In this document: one piece after another, positions 51,058 to 57,603 of the stretch
Numbering within the stretch: position 1 is the first letter of the stretch
Layout of the letters: every line of letters begins with the position of its first letter
Source: Candidatus Peregrinibacteria bacterium CG10_big_fil_rev_8_21_14_0_10_55_24
Lineage (GTDB): Bacteria > Patescibacteriota > Gracilibacteria > Peribacterales > Peribacteraceae
Assembly (NCBI GenBank): GCA_002772745.1
Contig: PFDV01000005.1
Location: forward strand, 135,609-199,608
Direction: 5' to 3'
Length of the DNA stretch: 64,000 bases
Program-made: the position numbers and the translations under genes
The notes under the pieces: generated by a model
Database searches by the model: none
Told to the model about the DNA's origin: nothing
The model's input: the letters and a program-made list of their open reading frames with translations, nothing else

Positions 51058-52203
51058 TCATTCCTGCAGGGCTTCCTCATCTTCCTCTGTTCTTTCTCTG
51101 GCCCATGTTTGGAATTGCTCAAACAGTTCTCTAAGAGTCGTGAGCGAATTCGTGACGAGTGCCTTACCATCCTGTAGTCGAGACATCAGGTCCTGCGACT
51201 CTCTCGTTCTCGTGAGGAGACGGGCTAGTTGGGGGTTCGTGGTTGCGAGATGTTTCTTGAATGCGCGTTTATTCTTCTTCTGGCGACTATCTGCAACATC
51301 GAGGGTTCCTGCGTAAATCTTCGCACACGCTTCCGTGAAACTCTCATCTCCATTCAGCAGGAGTCGGTGATCATCGTCATCCTGTTCGCGTGCCCAGAGG
51401 ATTCCTTCGTCGAGAGTCGCAGCGCCATGGGCGACCGTGATCGGACACTCGTCTGGGAGTGGTTCTTTGAATTTTGCGTGCATGTGAGGCTGGTTGAGGT
51501 TCACGCTCTTACGCAGGATGGGATCATCCGCAATTGCCTGCTGGTACCCCGCGCCGGTGGCTTGCAGGAGTTCGTTGGAGAGAGGGGAATTCCCACGAAG
51601 CAGGATGGCAAATTCGTCTCCTCCCGTGGCGATGGGTGTCACATGCAGCCCGTTGCGCTCCAGCCAGAGTCGTGTCGAACTTTCCTTCTCCGTGAGAACT
51701 CTGGCGATTCCCTGGAGGAGCACTCCGGTTTTCGTATGGCCGACGAGTTCCCTGATAGATCTGGTGCCATTCATGTCAAAAGCGACCAGACCCACCTGTT
51801 TGAGGCTCTCCGGGGATGCGCTCTCCATGACATGATGTTCGATTTCCTGCGCAACCAGAAGTCTGCCGAGTCTCTGCGTTTTGATGTTGTGCCCGTCCGT
51901 GGAGTACACATGGTTAAAGAAGCTGGCCATGGCGGTAGCCCGCGTGATTCCTTCCATTTCACATGCCTGTTCGCCATGGAGTTCCCCATCGCGAGGCATG
52001 CCGTTGTCGATTCTGTGGAGCGTGAGTGTTGCCTGCAAAAGACGTCGCTGGTTTTCGCTGAGGCATTCCACCAGGTGCTTGGTACTGCTCAAATCGTCTG
52101 GCTCTGCATGATTGCGCGCATGCAGTTCCCGCAGCGCAAGCATGATCTCCTCAAGAGTCTGTTGTTCCTTAGGCTCGTGCTTTTCGAGGAGGGATTTCGA
52201 CAT
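51058..52203 (-). CDS. GGDEF-domain protein (putative diguanylate cyclase)
   Basis: 381 residues. The middle has a GGDEF-like fold: VGLVAFDMNGTRSIRELVGHTKTGVLLQGIARVL, then TGGDEFAILL with the literal GGDEF motif. The usual D-x-FK..ND positions are replaced by FDMNGTRSIREL, so activity is uncertain. The flanking N- and C-terminal parts are helical and not recognised. No sensor domain or membrane segment. It lies at the outer end of the cassette array, with a strong promoter that follows repeat R1, so it may be the oldest cassette. Confidence 0.75.
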   Translation of the reverse strand: MSKSLLEKHEPKEQQTLEEIMLALRELHARNHAEPDDLSSTKHLVECLSENQRRLLQATLTLHRIDNGMPRDGELHGEQACEMEGITRATAMASFFNHVYSTDGHNIKTQRLGRLLVAQEIEHHVMESASPESLKQVGLVAFDMNGTRSIRELVGHTKTGVLLQGIARVLTEKESSTRLWLERNGLHVTPIATGGDEFAILLRGNSPLSNELLQATGAGYQQAIADDPILRKSVNLNQPHMHAKFKEPLPDECPITVAHGAATLDEGILWAREQDDDDHRLLLNGDESFTEACAKIYAGTLDVADSRQKKNKRAFKKHLATTNPQLARLLTRTRESQDLMSRLQDGKALVTNSLTTLRELFEQFQTWARERTEEDEEALQE

Positions 52204-52434: not shown

Positions 52435-52492
52435 TGGAGCGGGTTACTGGATGTTATTCAAACTGTGATGCGTCCGACAAGGAGTTTGTGAC
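52435..52492 (-). repeat. Cassette-junction repeat R1
   Basis: 58 bases. It begins TGGAGCGGG on the plus strand, which is the reverse complement of the tRNA-Gly 3' end CCCGCTCCA, and continues with the conserved pieces GGATGTTATT, GCGTCCGACAAGGAG and TTTGTGAC. It lies 8 bases beyond the stop of the 399-residue gene. On its outer side is a GCTCCTGCAGGAGC palindrome. Confidence 0.8.
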
Positions 52493-52499
52493 TATCACA

Positions 52500-53699
52500 T
52501 TATTTTTGTCTGGGGAATTCAACCATGCCGTTGATGCCGTTGGAAATGACTCGAATTTTACGGAGAGAACCTATTCGACATCGAGGGATCAAGTCTTCAT
52601 CGTTTCCAAGCATGACGGTCACAGGAGCTTTTTGCATCCAGCGATAGTGTCCATGGGGAAGGAGTTGACTTTCGCCACTACATGCAAGATATGCAGCGAC
52701 GTTTGTTGGTTGGATAGAAAGATCGGTGCTCTCGTGTGTACTGGTATTGGCGTAGATGTAGGCAGCATCGTTGTCCTTCTTCCTTCGCTTGACGCCGTCG
52801 TCATCGAGGAAGGCGACAGGAAATGATACTCCTTCCTCCGGTGTAGTACCGTACGCCCCGTATGGGAAGACGACGCGACTTTGGATGCGAGGATTATCGG
52901 AGGATTTCGGTTCAAACTCAGCACGGGGAGAGAAAAGCTTGAATAGACGTGCTTGATAGAAGAGAACCTCATTCGTCACGTCATCAAAGCCGAATTCCAT
53001 TTGATACGAATGTGTGTGGGGCATCAGACCGCTATCTCGGACATGCCTGTAAAATGCAATGATTGCATCGATGTGTCTGATATCGGATTCTTCGTATATT
53101 TGTTTTCCCTGATGAAGAGTCTCTATCGCATCAATTCTTTTGCCGTCATCTGTACAGACCTCTTCTTCCATCACCGCTTTTATTTTTTTCATGTATGCCT
53201 GAATCGCTGGATCGAGAGGGGTAGTGACTCCTACCCGATAGATTCCAGGCTGGTGAGGATGTTCGAGGATGGAGCCACGTGCACCTGTGTTGCAGTCCTG
53301 CACAAGCACTCCCACTTTTCCGTCAAATGGCTGCCCGAATTCATACTCAATATAAGAACGAACTTCTGGTTGTTGTACATGAGCTAATACATCTTGGATC
53401 GCTCTTCGTGTTTGCAATATCCCCTGAAGGTTGGGGATAGTCTTCAAGACATCCACCATTCCAAATACGTCCAGCGGGTGATACGCACGAACGATTTTCT
53501 TCCGGTCAAAATTCATCGTTCTCAAATGCGGCTCACTATCATCTCCTGGCTGAATGTCGGTTGTTCCGCTCGGAAGATGTTTTTCAAATCCTTTCTTTTC
53601 CCTTAGAAACTGGTATCCACCTGCCTTACTCCCTCCCCGTGCAAGTTGGAGTTTCGCATTTGAGTTTTGCCATTCGATTGATTCGAACGGGAAGGCCAT
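52500..53699 (-). CDS. Hypothetical cassette protein (399 aa)
   Basis: 399 residues, soluble. No family recognised. Notable stretches are GGSKAGGYQFLREKKGFE, DVLAHVQQPEVRSYIEYEFGQPFDGKVGVLVQDC, LEHPHQPGIYRVGV and HTHSYQMEFGFDDVT; a Gly-rich N-terminus and an acid-rich centre are compatible with an ATP-grasp or PEP-synthase-related fold, which I would not assert. It has its own promoter and is bounded by R2 upstream and R1 downstream, making a one-gene cassette. A+T-richer than the chromosomal core. Confidence 0.8.
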   Translation of the reverse strand: MAFPFESIEWQNSNAKLQLARGGSKAGGYQFLREKKGFEKHLPSGTTDIQPGDDSEPHLRTMNFDRKKIVRAYHPLDVFGMVDVLKTIPNLQGILQTRRAIQDVLAHVQQPEVRSYIEYEFGQPFDGKVGVLVQDCNTGARGSILEHPHQPGIYRVGVTTPLDPAIQAYMKKIKAVMEEEVCTDDGKRIDAIETLHQGKQIYEESDIRHIDAIIAFYRHVRDSGLMPHTHSYQMEFGFDDVTNEVLFYQARLFKLFSPRAEFEPKSSDNPRIQSRVVFPYGAYGTTPEEGVSFPVAFLDDDGVKRRKKDNDAAYIYANTSTHESTDLSIQPTNVAAYLACSGESQLLPHGHYRWMQKAPVTVMLGNDEDLIPRCRIGSLRKIRVISNGINGMVEFPRQK

Positions 53700-53709
53700 G
53701 AAGCTGTAT

Positions 53710-53738
53710 ATTAAATAAATTAAATGTATTTATGTCAA
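53710..53738 (-). promoter_or_regulatory. Promoter of the 399-aa cassette gene, near-leaderless
   Basis: Minus strand TTGACA (53733-53738), 17-base spacer, TTTAAT (53710-53715). The ATG follows only 10 bases later, so the transcript would start within a few bases of the coding sequence. Confidence 0.6.
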
Positions 53739-53776
53739 TGAATGTTGATTGGCTTCTTTTAAGCAAAATATCTAGG

Positions 53777-53835
53777 TGGAGCGGGTGATGGGAGGTTATT
53801 GCAACCGTAATGGGGGGTACTAGGAGTTTGTGTCC
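53777..53835 (-). repeat. Cassette-junction repeat R2
   Basis: 59 bases beginning TGGAGCGGG, with GGTTATTGCAACCGTAAT and CTAGGAGTTTGTGTCC. It overlaps the end of the 244-residue gene: the last residues (DTNS) and TAG stop are repeat-encoded. Single short form without the hairpin extension present in R3 and R4. Confidence 0.8.
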
Positions 53836-54554
53836 TTACTCTCCAACGCATTCGAAGGTTCTTGTGCGAAGTACACTGTGACCCGCAGCACTCGACCCCC
53901 AAATAGCTCGTCTCTGTTGTCTTCCTGTATATCATAGCCGATGACTTTAGCTTTACGCTCATATGCAGCATTGATAATTCTGCTGTGCAGTAGGTCTACA
54001 TTCTCCAAGAATTCTTCTCTGGCATCGACCAACCATTCCTCATCAATTGGCCTCCAGATCTCTTGCGTTATTGAACCGGCTAATTTGTACTCGGTTTCGT
54101 CAAACAAATCTCGTGGGAAGATTTTGCCACATGGCCTCTTAGGTTTCTCCATGTGCATCTGATCTATTTCACCGCTTACGTCGCGAAGCTCAGTGGAGCC
54201 GTTTTGATTTATGTAAATGAGTTCCGGAGGAATAGCATCTTGAATCCTGAAGGGCACCAAATAAAAATCTGCATTTTTCCGCTTATCGGGTGTGCTTTCC
54301 AATGGAGCTCTGATGCTCTTGCGGACGGATTCCACGGCTTCAGCTGTGCTCAATAGTTCAGACCTGCGCAGCAGTGTGAATGTCCGCCCGTCTTCTCCTA
54401 TGGCCTCTACCCGAAACAAAGGCAATCCCTCGTGTACTTTGCTCGTGACCTCAATTGAGCGGATATGATTCGCCTCAATATACTTTGCGATGTCATCATC
54501 CTTCCGCAATTGGTGTTCGAGTGCCTTGCTCCATGGCTTAGGCTGTTGTTCCAT
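53820..54554 (-). CDS. Hypothetical cassette protein (244 aa)
   Basis: 244 residues, soluble, charged. No family recognised. The middle contains DFYLVPFRIQDAIPPELIYIN and the C-terminal third has YERKAKVIGYDIQEDNRDELFGGRVLRVTVYF, a pattern of alternating strands. TACAAT lies 11 bases before the ATG, so a near-leaderless transcript is likely, but the -35 is weak. Bounded by R3 and R2. Confidence 0.75.
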   Translation of the reverse strand: MEQQPKPWSKALEHQLRKDDDIAKYIEANHIRSIEVTSKVHEGLPLFRVEAIGEDGRTFTLLRRSELLSTAEAVESVRKSIRAPLESTPDKRKNADFYLVPFRIQDAIPPELIYINQNGSTELRDVSGEIDQMHMEKPKRPCGKIFPRDLFDETEYKLAGSITQEIWRPIDEEWLVDAREEFLENVDLLHSRIINAAYERKAKVIGYDIQEDNRDELFGGRVLRVTVYFAQEPSNALESKDTNS

Positions 54555-54654
54555 TGTTAATTAACATTGTACCCTAATATTGTAGTTTTTGCCAGACATG
54601 CCCGTCTCGAAATATGCCTGCCAATCTTACAGTTGTATTTCCACTTACCAGTAC

Positions 54655-54683
54655 AAAAATAAATGGCTTGAATAAGCCATAAA
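54655..54683 (-). terminator. Intrinsic terminator at the R3 junction
   Basis: On the minus strand ATGGCTT-ATTC-AAGCCAT is followed by TTATTTTT. It lies just past the R3 copy of the tRNA 3' end and would end transcripts coming from the HD-domain gene. Confidence 0.65.
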
Positions 54684-54688
54684 TTAGG

Positions 54689-54876
54689 TGGAGCGGGCAA
54701 GCACCACGTCGTTTCGCTCCTCTGTACTGCCTTTCATTCGATTCACTGCGTTTCCTTCGGCAAGCTCAGGATCATTGCTCATCGCATGAAAGCTCCAGAA
54801 TTGCTGAGGCAATTCTGGAGCGGGTGGCTGGAATCTATTACAACTATATGGGTCCGACGAGGAGCTAATCTCTGTC
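54689..54876 (-). repeat. Cassette-junction repeat R3 (long form)
   Basis: Two copies of the tRNA-Gly-like end bracket a ~115-base spacer. The inner core R3b (54816-54876) carries TGGAGCGGG, GGAATCTATTACAAC and GTCCGACGAGGAGC. Next comes a perfect hairpin CTCCAGAATTGC/GCAATTCTGGAG (54793-54820) that includes the tRNA-like CTCCA. After ~90 bases the outer end TGGAGCGGGCAAGC (54689-54702) matches the tRNA end at 13 of 14 bases. Spacer pieces TTTCATGC and GAATGAAAGG (minus strand) recur in R4. The 343-base gap between genes at 54555-54897 holds this element, the terminator and a promoter. Confidence 0.8.
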
Positions 54877-54897
54877 ATAAAATCCCCTCACAGTCGG

Positions 54898-55767
54898 TTA
54901 CGAATTCGCTCTATCGCACAAAAATAATTCAGGATCCTGCTTATTATCAGGAGCCAGTGCCTTTTGAAGGTCCGTGGCAATCATCTTCGCAACGATTACC
55001 TGCCAATCAGCATAGGACTTCATCTGGCGAAGTTTTTTGGCATCGTCGCTGTTGATATCTCGGATTGTTACTGCTTTTCCGCTTGCATCAAACCCGAAGC
55101 CTTCTATAAAGAGAAAGGCATATCGATTGGGAAAATCTGAAAGTGCCATCCGCTCCTCACATGTGACGTAGTACGTTTGTTCTTCACTTCCATCCTTCGG
55201 GAGGGTAGACGAAGTCATATCGTCGGCAATATGCACCACTTTCTCGGCATTGGTACGTTTGGGATTGAGGAAAATCGCCCCTTGACTATCGATTTGCAAA
55301 AATGACATGAGGCTATTGTGGCCTGTTTCTTTGCCAGCAGCTGCAAGATAATCTAAAAGCTCGGGATGGATATTTTCTCCTTTAAGTTTCTCTCGAATTG
55401 CTTCATACGCCTGACCCGAATACACATCCGCACAATTCAATGCTCCAGACTTCTGTGCTTTTTTGCGCATCACTTCATATCTCTTGTTTGCATCGTGCAC
55501 GAGTGCTCGCTCCACGGCTGTCGGATCCAATTTCTCTGCGAGATGGGCAACAGCAACACAGTGGCGACCAATATTTGTGAAACTTTCAACATCTTCCGGC
55601 TGTCCGGGTAAGTACGGATTTTTCAGAATCACTTCCCGACTCGGATGCACTCCTCCCACTTCAAGAATACGCATTGCCTCAGGAAATCGTTGTTCGTATT
55701 CATGCAGCTTTTGCTGTAGCAGGGATTTGTCGACTGGTTCAAAATTTCCGAATTCAATGGCTTCCAT
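54898..55767 (-). CDS. HD-domain phosphohydrolase-like cassette protein
   Basis: 289 residues from ATG 55767; longer frames run through R4 and are not credible. The HD pattern is His69 in GRHCVAVAHLAEKLDP, His91-Asp92 in ALVHDANKRYEVM and Asp181 in VVHIADDMTSS, i.e. the H...HD...D set of metal-dependent phosphohydrolases. The C-terminal ~100 residues are unassigned. A nucleotide or signalling phosphoester is the likely substrate. It has a promoter placed exactly at the end of the R4 tRNA-like sequence. Confidence 0.75.
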   Translation of the reverse strand: MEAIEFGNFEPVDKSLLQQKLHEYEQRFPEAMRILEVGGVHPSREVILKNPYLPGQPEDVESFTNIGRHCVAVAHLAEKLDPTAVERALVHDANKRYEVMRKKAQKSGALNCADVYSGQAYEAIREKLKGENIHPELLDYLAAAGKETGHNSLMSFLQIDSQGAIFLNPKRTNAEKVVHIADDMTSSTLPKDGSEEQTYYVTCEERMALSDFPNRYAFLFIEGFGFDASGKAVTIRDINSDDAKKLRQMKSYADWQVIVAKMIATDLQKALAPDNKQDPELFLCDRANS

Positions 55768-55774
55768 GTTATAT

Positions 55775-55802
55775 ATGATATAATTTAGTGTTACTTTGTC
55801 AA
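55775..55802 (-). promoter_or_regulatory. Leaderless promoter of the HD-domain cassette gene
   Basis: Minus strand TTGACA (55797-55802), 16-base spacer, TATCAT (55775-55780); the ATG is 7 bases after the -10, so transcription should start at or next to the A of ATG. The -35 directly abuts the CCA of the tRNA-like end of R4. Confidence 0.7.
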
Positions 55803-55958
55803 TGGAGCGGGCGAGCCCTAAAGGACTTCCTTTCATCCTGCTCATTTCGTCACTGAGTTCCTCATTCGCAGCATGAAACACTCCAAACGCTAAAGCGTTT
55901 GGAGCGGGCGGCTGAATGTTATTACAATTGGAATGCAGTCCTGTTAGGAGTTTCTGTC
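55803..55958 (-). repeat. Cassette-junction repeat R4 (long form)
   Basis: Outer end TGGAGCGGGCGAGC (55803-55816) is identical over 14 bases to the 3' end of tRNA-Gly at 57395-57408. Hairpin CTCCAAACGC-TAAA-GCGTTTGGAG at 55881-55904. Core R4b (55900-55958) has TGGAGCGGG, GAATGTTATTACAA and TTAGGAGTTTCTGTC; it encodes the last residues (DRNS) and stop of the streptomycin-kinase-like gene. Same architecture as R3, with a different hairpin sequence. Confidence 0.85.
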
Positions 55959-56837
55959 TATGAGTTTTTCGAGAGTTCTCACACAAACAATGTCGTATTC
56001 TTCATTGTTCTCCACTGACCAACAGCATGAAATTACGCTCTGCACAAAAGCTCTCCCAATGACTCGTGAAATATTTGTTTGGAGTGTTTCCGCAAAAATG
56101 GTAGCTCTTTGCATGAAGATATTCTCAATATTTGGATTCTGAGAAATTCCCTCCGGATTATAGAAAAATGCTCCAACTTCACATATTGGATCGCCAATGA
56201 CACCCTGTGGATCGATTGTGAGCCACCCCCGTTCCTCGTCATAGAGAATATTTTCGTGGTGTAAATCGCCGTGCAGCACCCTCTCACAAGATTTTGTAGC
56301 TTCGAGTGCATGATGTGTTGCTCGTGCTTTCTCAATGAGTTCTCTGGGGATGTCATGATCATCTCCAATTCGTTCTGTGACATCGAGCCACTTGGTCACT
56401 GTTGGAAGAGTGTGTTGAGTCGGAGGAGTTGCTGGTAGTACCTTCATCACTTCAGCGGCAATCGTTGTTGCCTCTTCATCATCTTTGATTGTCGTGAGAT
56501 CATACCCAGGTTCTACTTTTTCCAAGAGTATGGAGCAGGTTTCATTGTCTCTTTCTAAAATCTTTATGGACTTTTGACCATTGAATGCATCCAATGCCTG
56601 TATTTCAGTATGAATTTCTGATGCAGGATACCCAATCTTCAATATTGCACTTTCGCCATTGGGCCTTTTAGCTTCTGCAACAAAGTTGCAGTAGGCATTC
56701 TCAAATGGTGTGCCAACAGTAATGCGCATTCTATCCTCGCATCTATTTACGATAGAAGGTAACTCCTCTAGCCACTTCGCTCCTTTGTCGTTCCATCGGT
56801 TTGTCACTGCGGTTGAAAGCTTGGGTGGGATGTACAT
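55944..56837 (-). CDS. APH(6)/StrB-like phosphotransferase
   Basis: 297 residues, kinase-like fold. The catalytic loop RVLHGDLHHENILYDEERGW holds Asp191 and Asn196, and IDPQGVIGDP the metal Asp209; Lys67 in AILKIGYP is the ATP ligand. These are the features of the streptomycin 6-kinase/hydroxyurea-kinase group. Whether it modifies an antibiotic or a cell metabolite is unknown. It starts 10 bases after the P-loop kinase gene, so the two form one cassette. The C-terminus and stop are inside R4. Confidence 0.85.
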   Translation of the reverse strand: MYIPPKLSTAVTNRWNDKGAKWLEELPSIVNRCEDRMRITVGTPFENAYCNFVAEAKRPNGESAILKIGYPASEIHTEIQALDAFNGQKSIKILERDNETCSILLEKVEPGYDLTTIKDDEEATTIAAEVMKVLPATPPTQHTLPTVTKWLDVTERIGDDHDIPRELIEKARATHHALEATKSCERVLHGDLHHENILYDEERGWLTIDPQGVIGDPICEVGAFFYNPEGISQNPNIENIFMQRATIFAETLQTNISRVIGRAFVQSVISCCWSVENNEEYDIVCVRTLEKLIDRNS

Positions 56838-56847
56838 TGTGAAGATA

Positions 56848-57378
56848 TTAATTCAAATCTAATTGAGAGTCATGTAGCCAAACACTTAGTGAGCCTGCAA
56901 TTTTTCTCGCAGTTTCCTCAGCATTCTCATTGCCATTATCAACGATACATTCCGGTTCGAATGATTCTTTGAGCTCATGAAATTGTGCACGGAGTGATAT
57001 GACTTGTTCTTCCCCGGAAGTCCAACAGTCTCTCTCTTTATCTCTTTGAATGAGGATGTCCTCAGAGGGTAGAAGCAGTTTGAATACGACGTCATTACCG
57101 AATGTCTTTTTAAATGTATCTATGATGGTGCCAAGCATGATGTAATCGACAATAACACTATTGCCATTGAGGTAGTGTTCATTTGTTCTACGGAGAAGTT
57201 CTCCTTTTAGGGCTGCAAGTTTTTTTGGATACTTCTCAATATCAATGAGACCTGGAAACAATTCCTGATTTATATCGTCGCCCTTGATCAGAGGAATGCC
57301 TAATTTCTCAGAGAGTAGTTCTGTTACGGTTGTTTTACCTGCACCACATGGGCCGGTAATGACGATAATTTTAGGCAC
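56848..57378 (-). CDS. P-loop nucleotide/small-molecule kinase-like protein
   Basis: 176 residues from GTG 57378. Walker A GPCGAGKTT at 9-17, then IKGDDINQELFPG, similar to the chloramphenicol phosphotransferase and gluconate or adenylylsulfate kinase group; a lid-like segment with Arg (IQRDKERDCWTSGEEQ) lies near residue 115. Substrate unknown. The start is only 17 bases after the CCA of tRNA-Gly, so the mRNA is probably co-transcribed with the tRNA and freed by tRNA 3' processing. Confidence 0.75.
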   Translation of the reverse strand: MPKIIVITGPCGAGKTTVTELLSEKLGIPLIKGDDINQELFPGLIDIEKYPKKLAALKGELLRRTNEHYLNGNSVIVDYIMLGTIIDTFKKTFGNDVVFKLLLPSEDILIQRDKERDCWTSGEEQVISLRAQFHELKESFEPECIVDNGNENAEETARKIAGSLSVWLHDSQLDLN

Positions 57379-57394
57379 AGATGAATGTCTTGGA

Positions 57395-57469
57395 TGGAGC
57401 GGGCGAGCGGAATCGAACCGCCGTCTTCAGCTTGGAAGGCTGACATAATAGCCATTATACGACGCCCGC
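57395..57469 (-). tRNA. tRNA-Gly (anticodon TCC), CCA encoded
   Basis: Acceptor GCGGGCG (57463-57469) pairs with CGCCCGC (57399-57405). The anticodon stem TCAGC/GCTGA frames CTTCCAA with anticodon TCC. T-arm GGCGGTTCGATTCCGCT; discriminator T, then CCA at 57395-57397. TAGAAT (minus strand, 57484-57489) could be its -10. Its last 14 bases are copied at R3 and R4 and, in shorter form, at R1 and R2. Confidence 0.95.
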
Positions 57470-57515: not shown

Positions 57516-57603
57516 GGCGAGCGTAATCCCTGCCTGCCGGCAGGCAGGGAACCGCCGTCTTCAGCTTGGAAGGCTGACATAATAGCCATTATACGACGCC
57601 CGC
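57516..57603 (-). pseudogene. Broken second copy of tRNA-Gly
   Basis: The 5' 54 bases (57549-57603) are identical to the intact tRNA-Gly from the acceptor 5' strand to GGCGGTTC. A palindrome then interrupts the T-loop, after which GATTACGCTCGCC continues the tRNA with a changed base. The 3' acceptor strand is damaged (CGCCTGG instead of CGCCCGC) and there is no CCA. Confidence 0.85.
57528..57549. repeat. 22-base perfect palindrome inside the tRNA-Gly copy
   Basis: CCCTGCCTGCC followed by its exact reverse complement GGCAGGCAGGG, placed between the two halves of the T-loop (GGTTC and GATT) of the second tRNA-Gly. Confidence 0.85.

Follow-up and report, generated by a model that had tools for sequence, protein, structure and literature searches.

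Integrons are the best-studied system for stockpiling single-gene cassettes. SCC elements carry a large serine recombinase (LSR; Ccr), insert at the 3' end of rlmH and stack in tandem, and some of their members possess no recombinase. Tycheposons and other tRNA-anchored islands and satellites use tyrosine recombinases. Here we compare these systems, on the basis of general knowledge, to an array of gene cassettes located behind a tRNA-Gly(TCC) gene. Our literature search found no earlier description of such a cassette system.

The window, i.e., the whole stretch of 64,000 nucleotides that was analyzed (G000:C8:135609-199608), belongs to a 1.29-Mb genome of 13 contigs. As TGA is read as sense in some members of its class, we infer a lineage of the class Gracilibacteria (Patescibacteria), possibly Peribacteria. 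A sequence-only reading had described four repeats, R1 to R4, tied to gene ends and sharing their own end with tRNA-Gly(TCC); our alignment and core search confirm that these are real (Table 1). Aligned over 65 bases, R1–R4 present a mean column identity of 79% and constitute a single motif: a left box, a right box and a terminal ...CCCGCTCCA, which is the tRNA 3' end. The sequence TGGAGCGGG was found seven times between 52435 and 57403, with every copy on the + strand (0.62 expected over the entire 64 kb). The repeat was also said to supply the stop of the gene in two cases, and the stops of the genes at 53820-54554 and 55944-56837 indeed lie within R2 and R4, respectively. R1 starts 4 bases and R3 21 bases past the stop of the respective gene. 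Finally, matches of 14/14 and 13/14 bases to TGGAGCGGGCGAGC had been assigned to two of the repeats. Both matches exist (at 55803 and 54689), but they are not part of R4 and R3 and represent separate sites located 90–130 bases beyond. TTGACA (55797-55802) begins immediately past the CCA of the former, and the latter is followed by a hairpin, a T-run and the left-end motif GTAAGTGGAAATACAACT.

Judging from the sequence, the gene of cassette 2 more likely starts at ATG 55769, and a Pfam search of this HD-like protein returned no match. The GGDEF-like gene called beyond R1 in the sequence-only reading stands only weakly. In three other genera (L265, L267, L270), homologues were found behind the same tRNA at a distance of a few kb, and the support for this gene as a conserved far flank of the array is only moderate. 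We dropped the flank following R1 as proof of an empty site, since the same hairpin sequence recurs behind other tRNA and R cores. A genome-wide scan for the StrB-like protein yielded merely distant relatives in other phyla and was uninformative on the array. Separately, a second, damaged copy of tRNA-Gly lies upstream of the functional tRNA-Gly(TCC), at 57530-57603. It shares 55 identical bases, its T-arm is interrupted by CCTGCCTGCCGGCAGGCAGG and its acceptor end lacks the last 7 bases; Rfam still scores it as a tRNA.

Table 1. Features of the cassette array in the window and the basis of each call.
Feature	Coordinates	Strand	Basis
tRNA-Gly(TCC), array anchor	57395..57469	-	ARAGORN, Rfam
tRNA-Gly(TCC) 3' end, CCCGCTCCA in sense, shared core	57395-57403	-	core search
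Cassette 1 gene a, P-loop kinase (AAA_18)	56848..57378	-	Pfam
Cassette 1 gene b, StrB-like kinase (APH_6_hur), stop within R4	55944..56837	-	Pfam E=3.6e-33
R4, cassette 1 3' site, terminal core CCCGCTCCA	55900..55963	-	R1-R4 alignment, R model
Second core behind R4, 14/14 copy of tRNA-Gly 3' end, no R	55803..55816	-	
Cassette 2 gene, HD-like protein, with revised start at ATG 55769	54898..55769	-	translation
R3, cassette 2 3' site	54816..54877	-	R1-R4 alignment, R model
Second core behind R3, 13/14 copy of tRNA-Gly 3' end	54689..54702	-	
Cassette 3 gene, unknown 244-aa protein, stop within R2	53820..54554	-	ORF, Pfam
R2, cassette 3 3' site	53777..53838	-	R1-R4 alignment, R model
Cassette 4 gene, unknown 399-aa protein	52500..53699	-	ORF, Pfam
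R1, cassette 4 3' site, distal end of recognizable array	52435..52496	-	R1-R4 alignment, R model
GGDEF-like gene, distal flank beyond R1	51058..52203	-	Pfam, weak: E=0.006

We further analyzed the anatomy of R. The site spans about 63 bases, with a left box (TCATGGACACAAACTCCTAG..GGAC.CATCA) and a right box (GGTTGTAATARATTCCAGTAACCCGCTCCA) that resembles the T-arm and acceptor strand of a tRNA. Conservation is one-sided: per base, it amounts to about 1–2 bits for most of the right box as far as CCA and is mostly below 0.3 beyond. The junction is followed by coding sequence, by terminator-like hairpins or by a promoter of the TTGACA type that starts at the first base; TTGAC constitutes the first five bases of the left end in nine cases. 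A subset of left ends contains GTAAnnGGAAATACAACT, an inverted right-box-like motif, 37–48 bases in, and left ends are otherwise unconserved. The hexamer preceding GCTCCA partly tracks the anchor: TATCCC was found at Gly(CCC) only, and CC(A/G/C)CCC mostly at tRNAs that read TCGCCC. Variants of R such as ACAGAGCTCCA occur in the same arrays, which shows that the strictly common part is GCTCCA. We place the putative exchange point within these six bases, based on sequence comparison alone. Folding of R produced no consensus pairs and was no better than shuffles, and we rejected an attC-like hairpin; Rfam returned no match to R. Short REP-like palindromes were observed at fixed points of some R (L328 9462-9556, L331 9360-9432 and the G080 array in L317/L318), either between the boxes or after TTCCAG with a duplication of CCAG.

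The consensus search proposed in the sequence-only reading was productive both within the genome and among relatives. In the same genome, the R1–R4 model recovered one more array, located at tRNA-Gly(CCC) (G000:C8, ~218.7-221 kb); its R sites and that tRNA have the same end, TATCCCGCTCCA. A model built from 22 sequences detected R in 39 of the family's 74 genomes, representing 26 of 40 genera, and its presence is variable within genera. In a sample of 288 genomes of the class, some members of which read TGA as sense, all 31 R-positive genomes fall within this one family and no R was found in the other families. Neither the left box nor the right box matched 774 kb of unrelated loci. On the fetched stretches that contain tRNA-Gly, all 55 R matches (partial matches counted) lie downstream of it on the same strand, with no contrary case, which supports the suggestion that a tRNA takes the place of attI as the anchor. 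Another 23 R matches lie on stretches without tRNA-Gly, some of them close to contig ends, and at least two of these (L322, L387) come after tRNA-Thr genes that also end in GCTCCA. In the relative G080, the array comprises about 14 cassettes across 20 kb, with weaker distal R copies. A viral origin was rejected, as IMG/VR searched with R patterns and the LSR described below gave no match. In G025, the R array whose sites end in GAGCTCCA, GGTGCTCCA or GGCGCTCCA contains an operon for trp biosynthesis (L129 8034-12281), and a tRNA pattern search found no anchor for this array. In G011, an insertion with argB/argC-like genes at tRNA-Gly(TCC) (L270 8360-11241) terminates in 18 nt copied from the tRNA 3' end, without R, and represents another type of insertion at this tRNA.

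Cassettes present a median length of 1.1 kb (n = 50 delimited) and mostly consist of a single gene followed by R. The stop codon falls at -40 to +100 of R in 35 of 45 cassettes (17% for random points), and in 10 of the 45 the stop is the same TAG at an identical position within the left box. Their contents are accessory: Fic, ClpP, GNAT, AHSA1, alpha/beta hydrolase, GIY-YIG and PLP decarboxylase, to which translations add a DHFR-like gene and the trp operon of L129. The 0.68-kb DHFR-like cassette lies immediately after tRNA-Gly(CCC) in G021 and is second in the tRNA-Gly(TCC) array of G026, a different genus. The two copies are 87% identical in DNA, from the first base past CTCCA through to R, and their flanks are unrelated. 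Because the similarity is bounded exactly by CTCCA and R, at two anchors and in two genera, we conclude that the unit moves; this is the clearest proof of a mobile unit. Together with the stop-codon statistics, it supports the earlier view of the cassette as a unit with a 3' site. Conservation of the arrays in distant relatives or random scattering of R would have refuted that view, and neither was observed: gene content differs among genomes, compared here with one genome per species, and R is not scattered.

These arrays resemble integrons in several respects. Both have an anchor and a head-to-tail array, in which a cassette mostly comprises a single gene with a single 3' recombination site; the 3' site overlaps the stop, the genes are accessory and the junction is conserved mainly on the cassette 3' side. 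Tested for cassettes movable as units, the arrays met this expectation. Other tested properties differ from integrons: no IntI-type tyrosine integrase is linked to R arrays, there is no attI but the 3' end of tRNA-Gly, and R lacks attC hairpin folding. In addition, R cassettes often possess a promoter of their own, and the enzyme linked to them belongs to the serine recombinases.

The sequence-only reading had suspected a tyrosine recombinase, but the evidence favors an LSR. A clade of LSRs in the family abuts tRNA 3' ends, with Gly, Thr, Asn, Arg and Cys targets, and the last codons of these genes (TGG, TGG AGC or TGG AGC GGG) are the complement of the tRNA 3' end; at tRNA-Gly, the C-terminus ..WSG is encoded by it. 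Those at tRNA-Thr, Asn, Arg and Cys, with coding sequences ending in the tRNA 3' end (TGG from CCA), were observed in L217, L221, L387 and L389-L394. A serine recombinase clade that targets tRNA 3' ends looks unusual. The proteins present Resolvase, Recombinase and Zn-ribbon domains and are similar to the A118 and SPbeta integrases. All three complete LSR elements at tRNA-Gly were observed to end in R, located 6.6 kb (L119), 7.6 kb (L325) and 6.4 kb (L395) away. The LSRs of L119 and L325 share 58% amino acid identity, and the R of L119 is the top match to the R model across the family. In L388, an LSR lies at tRNA-Gly and the stretch stops at the contig end; in L387, the LSR lies at tRNA-Thr and a weaker R is found at a distance of 11.4 kb. 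Finally, G080 contains an LSR remnant: the last 27 codons of such a gene immediately follow an R core and occupy the left end of a Fic-gene cassette. From the LSRs adjoining tRNA-Gly with R at the far end and from this remnant, we propose that the LSR acts on R and the tRNA end, with the cassettes as passengers. The system resembles SCC elements: the element carries an LSR (only in the full-length L119, L325 and L395, and in none of the cassettes), a single conserved gene is targeted at its 3' end, units stack in tandem and some members have no recombinase. It differs from SCC in targeting tRNA-Gly rather than rlmH, in its single-gene units of about 1.1 kb with one-sided conservation, and in its hosts, one family of small-genome bacteria.

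The best explanation, and in our view a probable one, is an integron-like cassette system that is anchored at a tRNA and mobilized in trans by the LSR of related full-length elements. R of a cassette would recombine with the 3' end of tRNA-Gly, or with another R, inserting the cassette directly past CCA and leaving the tRNA intact. We infer that recognition is limited to what lies left of the junction, either R or the tRNA acceptor end; any DNA may then come next and cassettes can stack. If only this half is read, tRNA|X and R|Y would keep their site type, so that insertion and excision, with inferred circular intermediates, would need no change of type. The enzyme would most likely be the LSR of the full-length elements sharing the same R, although its action on cassette R sites is inferred, as is mobilization in trans. 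Single-gene cassettes would be non-autonomous passengers or deletion derivatives. Three observations count against an LSR. Ordinary LSR attP sites have specificity on both sides of the crossover, unlike the left ends here, which are unconserved save for the inverted-motif subset. LSRs at tRNA-Gly were found in few genomes (three complete, two partial) relative to the 39 with R; no close LSR was found in the genome of the window, where movement would need a helper from outside. The hexamer that follows the anchor would fit a crossover further upstream. Moreover, relatives hold LSRs at many other tRNAs, and the co-location of LSR and R could be partly coincidence.

The absence of an LSR from most R-positive genomes would also be expected if successive LSR islands had inserted at tRNA-Gly and each had shrunk to a gene and its attR, i.e., R, leaving a fossil record rather than an exchange system. 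The LSR remnant beside the Fic-gene cassette and the weaker distal R copies of G080 fit such accretion and decay. We nevertheless consider it unlikely, since deletion scars would not give left ends that begin exactly past CCA, nine times with TTGAC first, and since two genera share the 0.68-kb DHFR cassette as a complete unit behind different anchors.

Less likely still is mobilization by a tyrosine recombinase, either the housekeeping Xer or an additional 280-aa enzyme (IntX, L001), a mode known from classical genomic islands. Tyrosine integrases usually target tRNA 3' ends, and both the tRNA-like right box and the partly anchor-following hexamer would agree with it. Like tycheposons and other tRNA islands, the arrays have tRNA-anchored variable cargo and integrase-less members, which here would depend on a helper, and they met the tested expectation of a tRNA anchor with a restored tRNA end. 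They differ in being single-gene units with a conserved 63-base end, and no tyrosine recombinase tracks R sites. The two in the genome of the window are located away from the arrays, in agreement with the earlier claim of no local integrase: we found no tyrosine integrase in or near the arrays, and none was seen inside an R-bounded element. Many R-positive genomes have Xer as their only tyrosine recombinase. IntX lies in glycosyltransferase clusters, not at arrays, and is present in other families without R. An early association, in which 7/7 carriers were R-positive with weak matches counted, vanished in 74 genomes: about 15 carry IntX and 9 of these 15 have R, close to the overall 39/74. As a side observation, a second tyrosine recombinase of 270–300 aa lies beside a glycosyltransferase gene in several genera (L001 1462-2349; L172, L174-L176); it may act as a switch for phase variation in a surface polysaccharide cluster.

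A reading of R as a conserved signal of RNA or transcription (a terminator or an element of the 3' UTR) that marks gene ends and was spread by ordinary gene transfer is very unlikely: R lies at gene 3' ends and often provides the stop codon, but it has no Rfam match, does not fold above shuffles and is strictly tied to tRNA-Gly and the tRNA 3' sequence.

If an LSR does move these cassettes, the system could represent a second natural solution to gene-cassette capture, with a serine recombinase, one-sided sites, a tRNA platform and the 63-base R as the counterpart of attC, in which any gene could be captured and the site type would be the same before and after integration. We raise this only tentatively. 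One-sided sites, if true, would by inference amount to integron logic with another enzyme and platform, and the system would offer a recombinase with unusual site logic. As a distinct, clade-wide system, it would show how bacteria with very small genomes gain accessory genes such as kinases, DHFR, acetyltransferases, Fic and even a trp operon.
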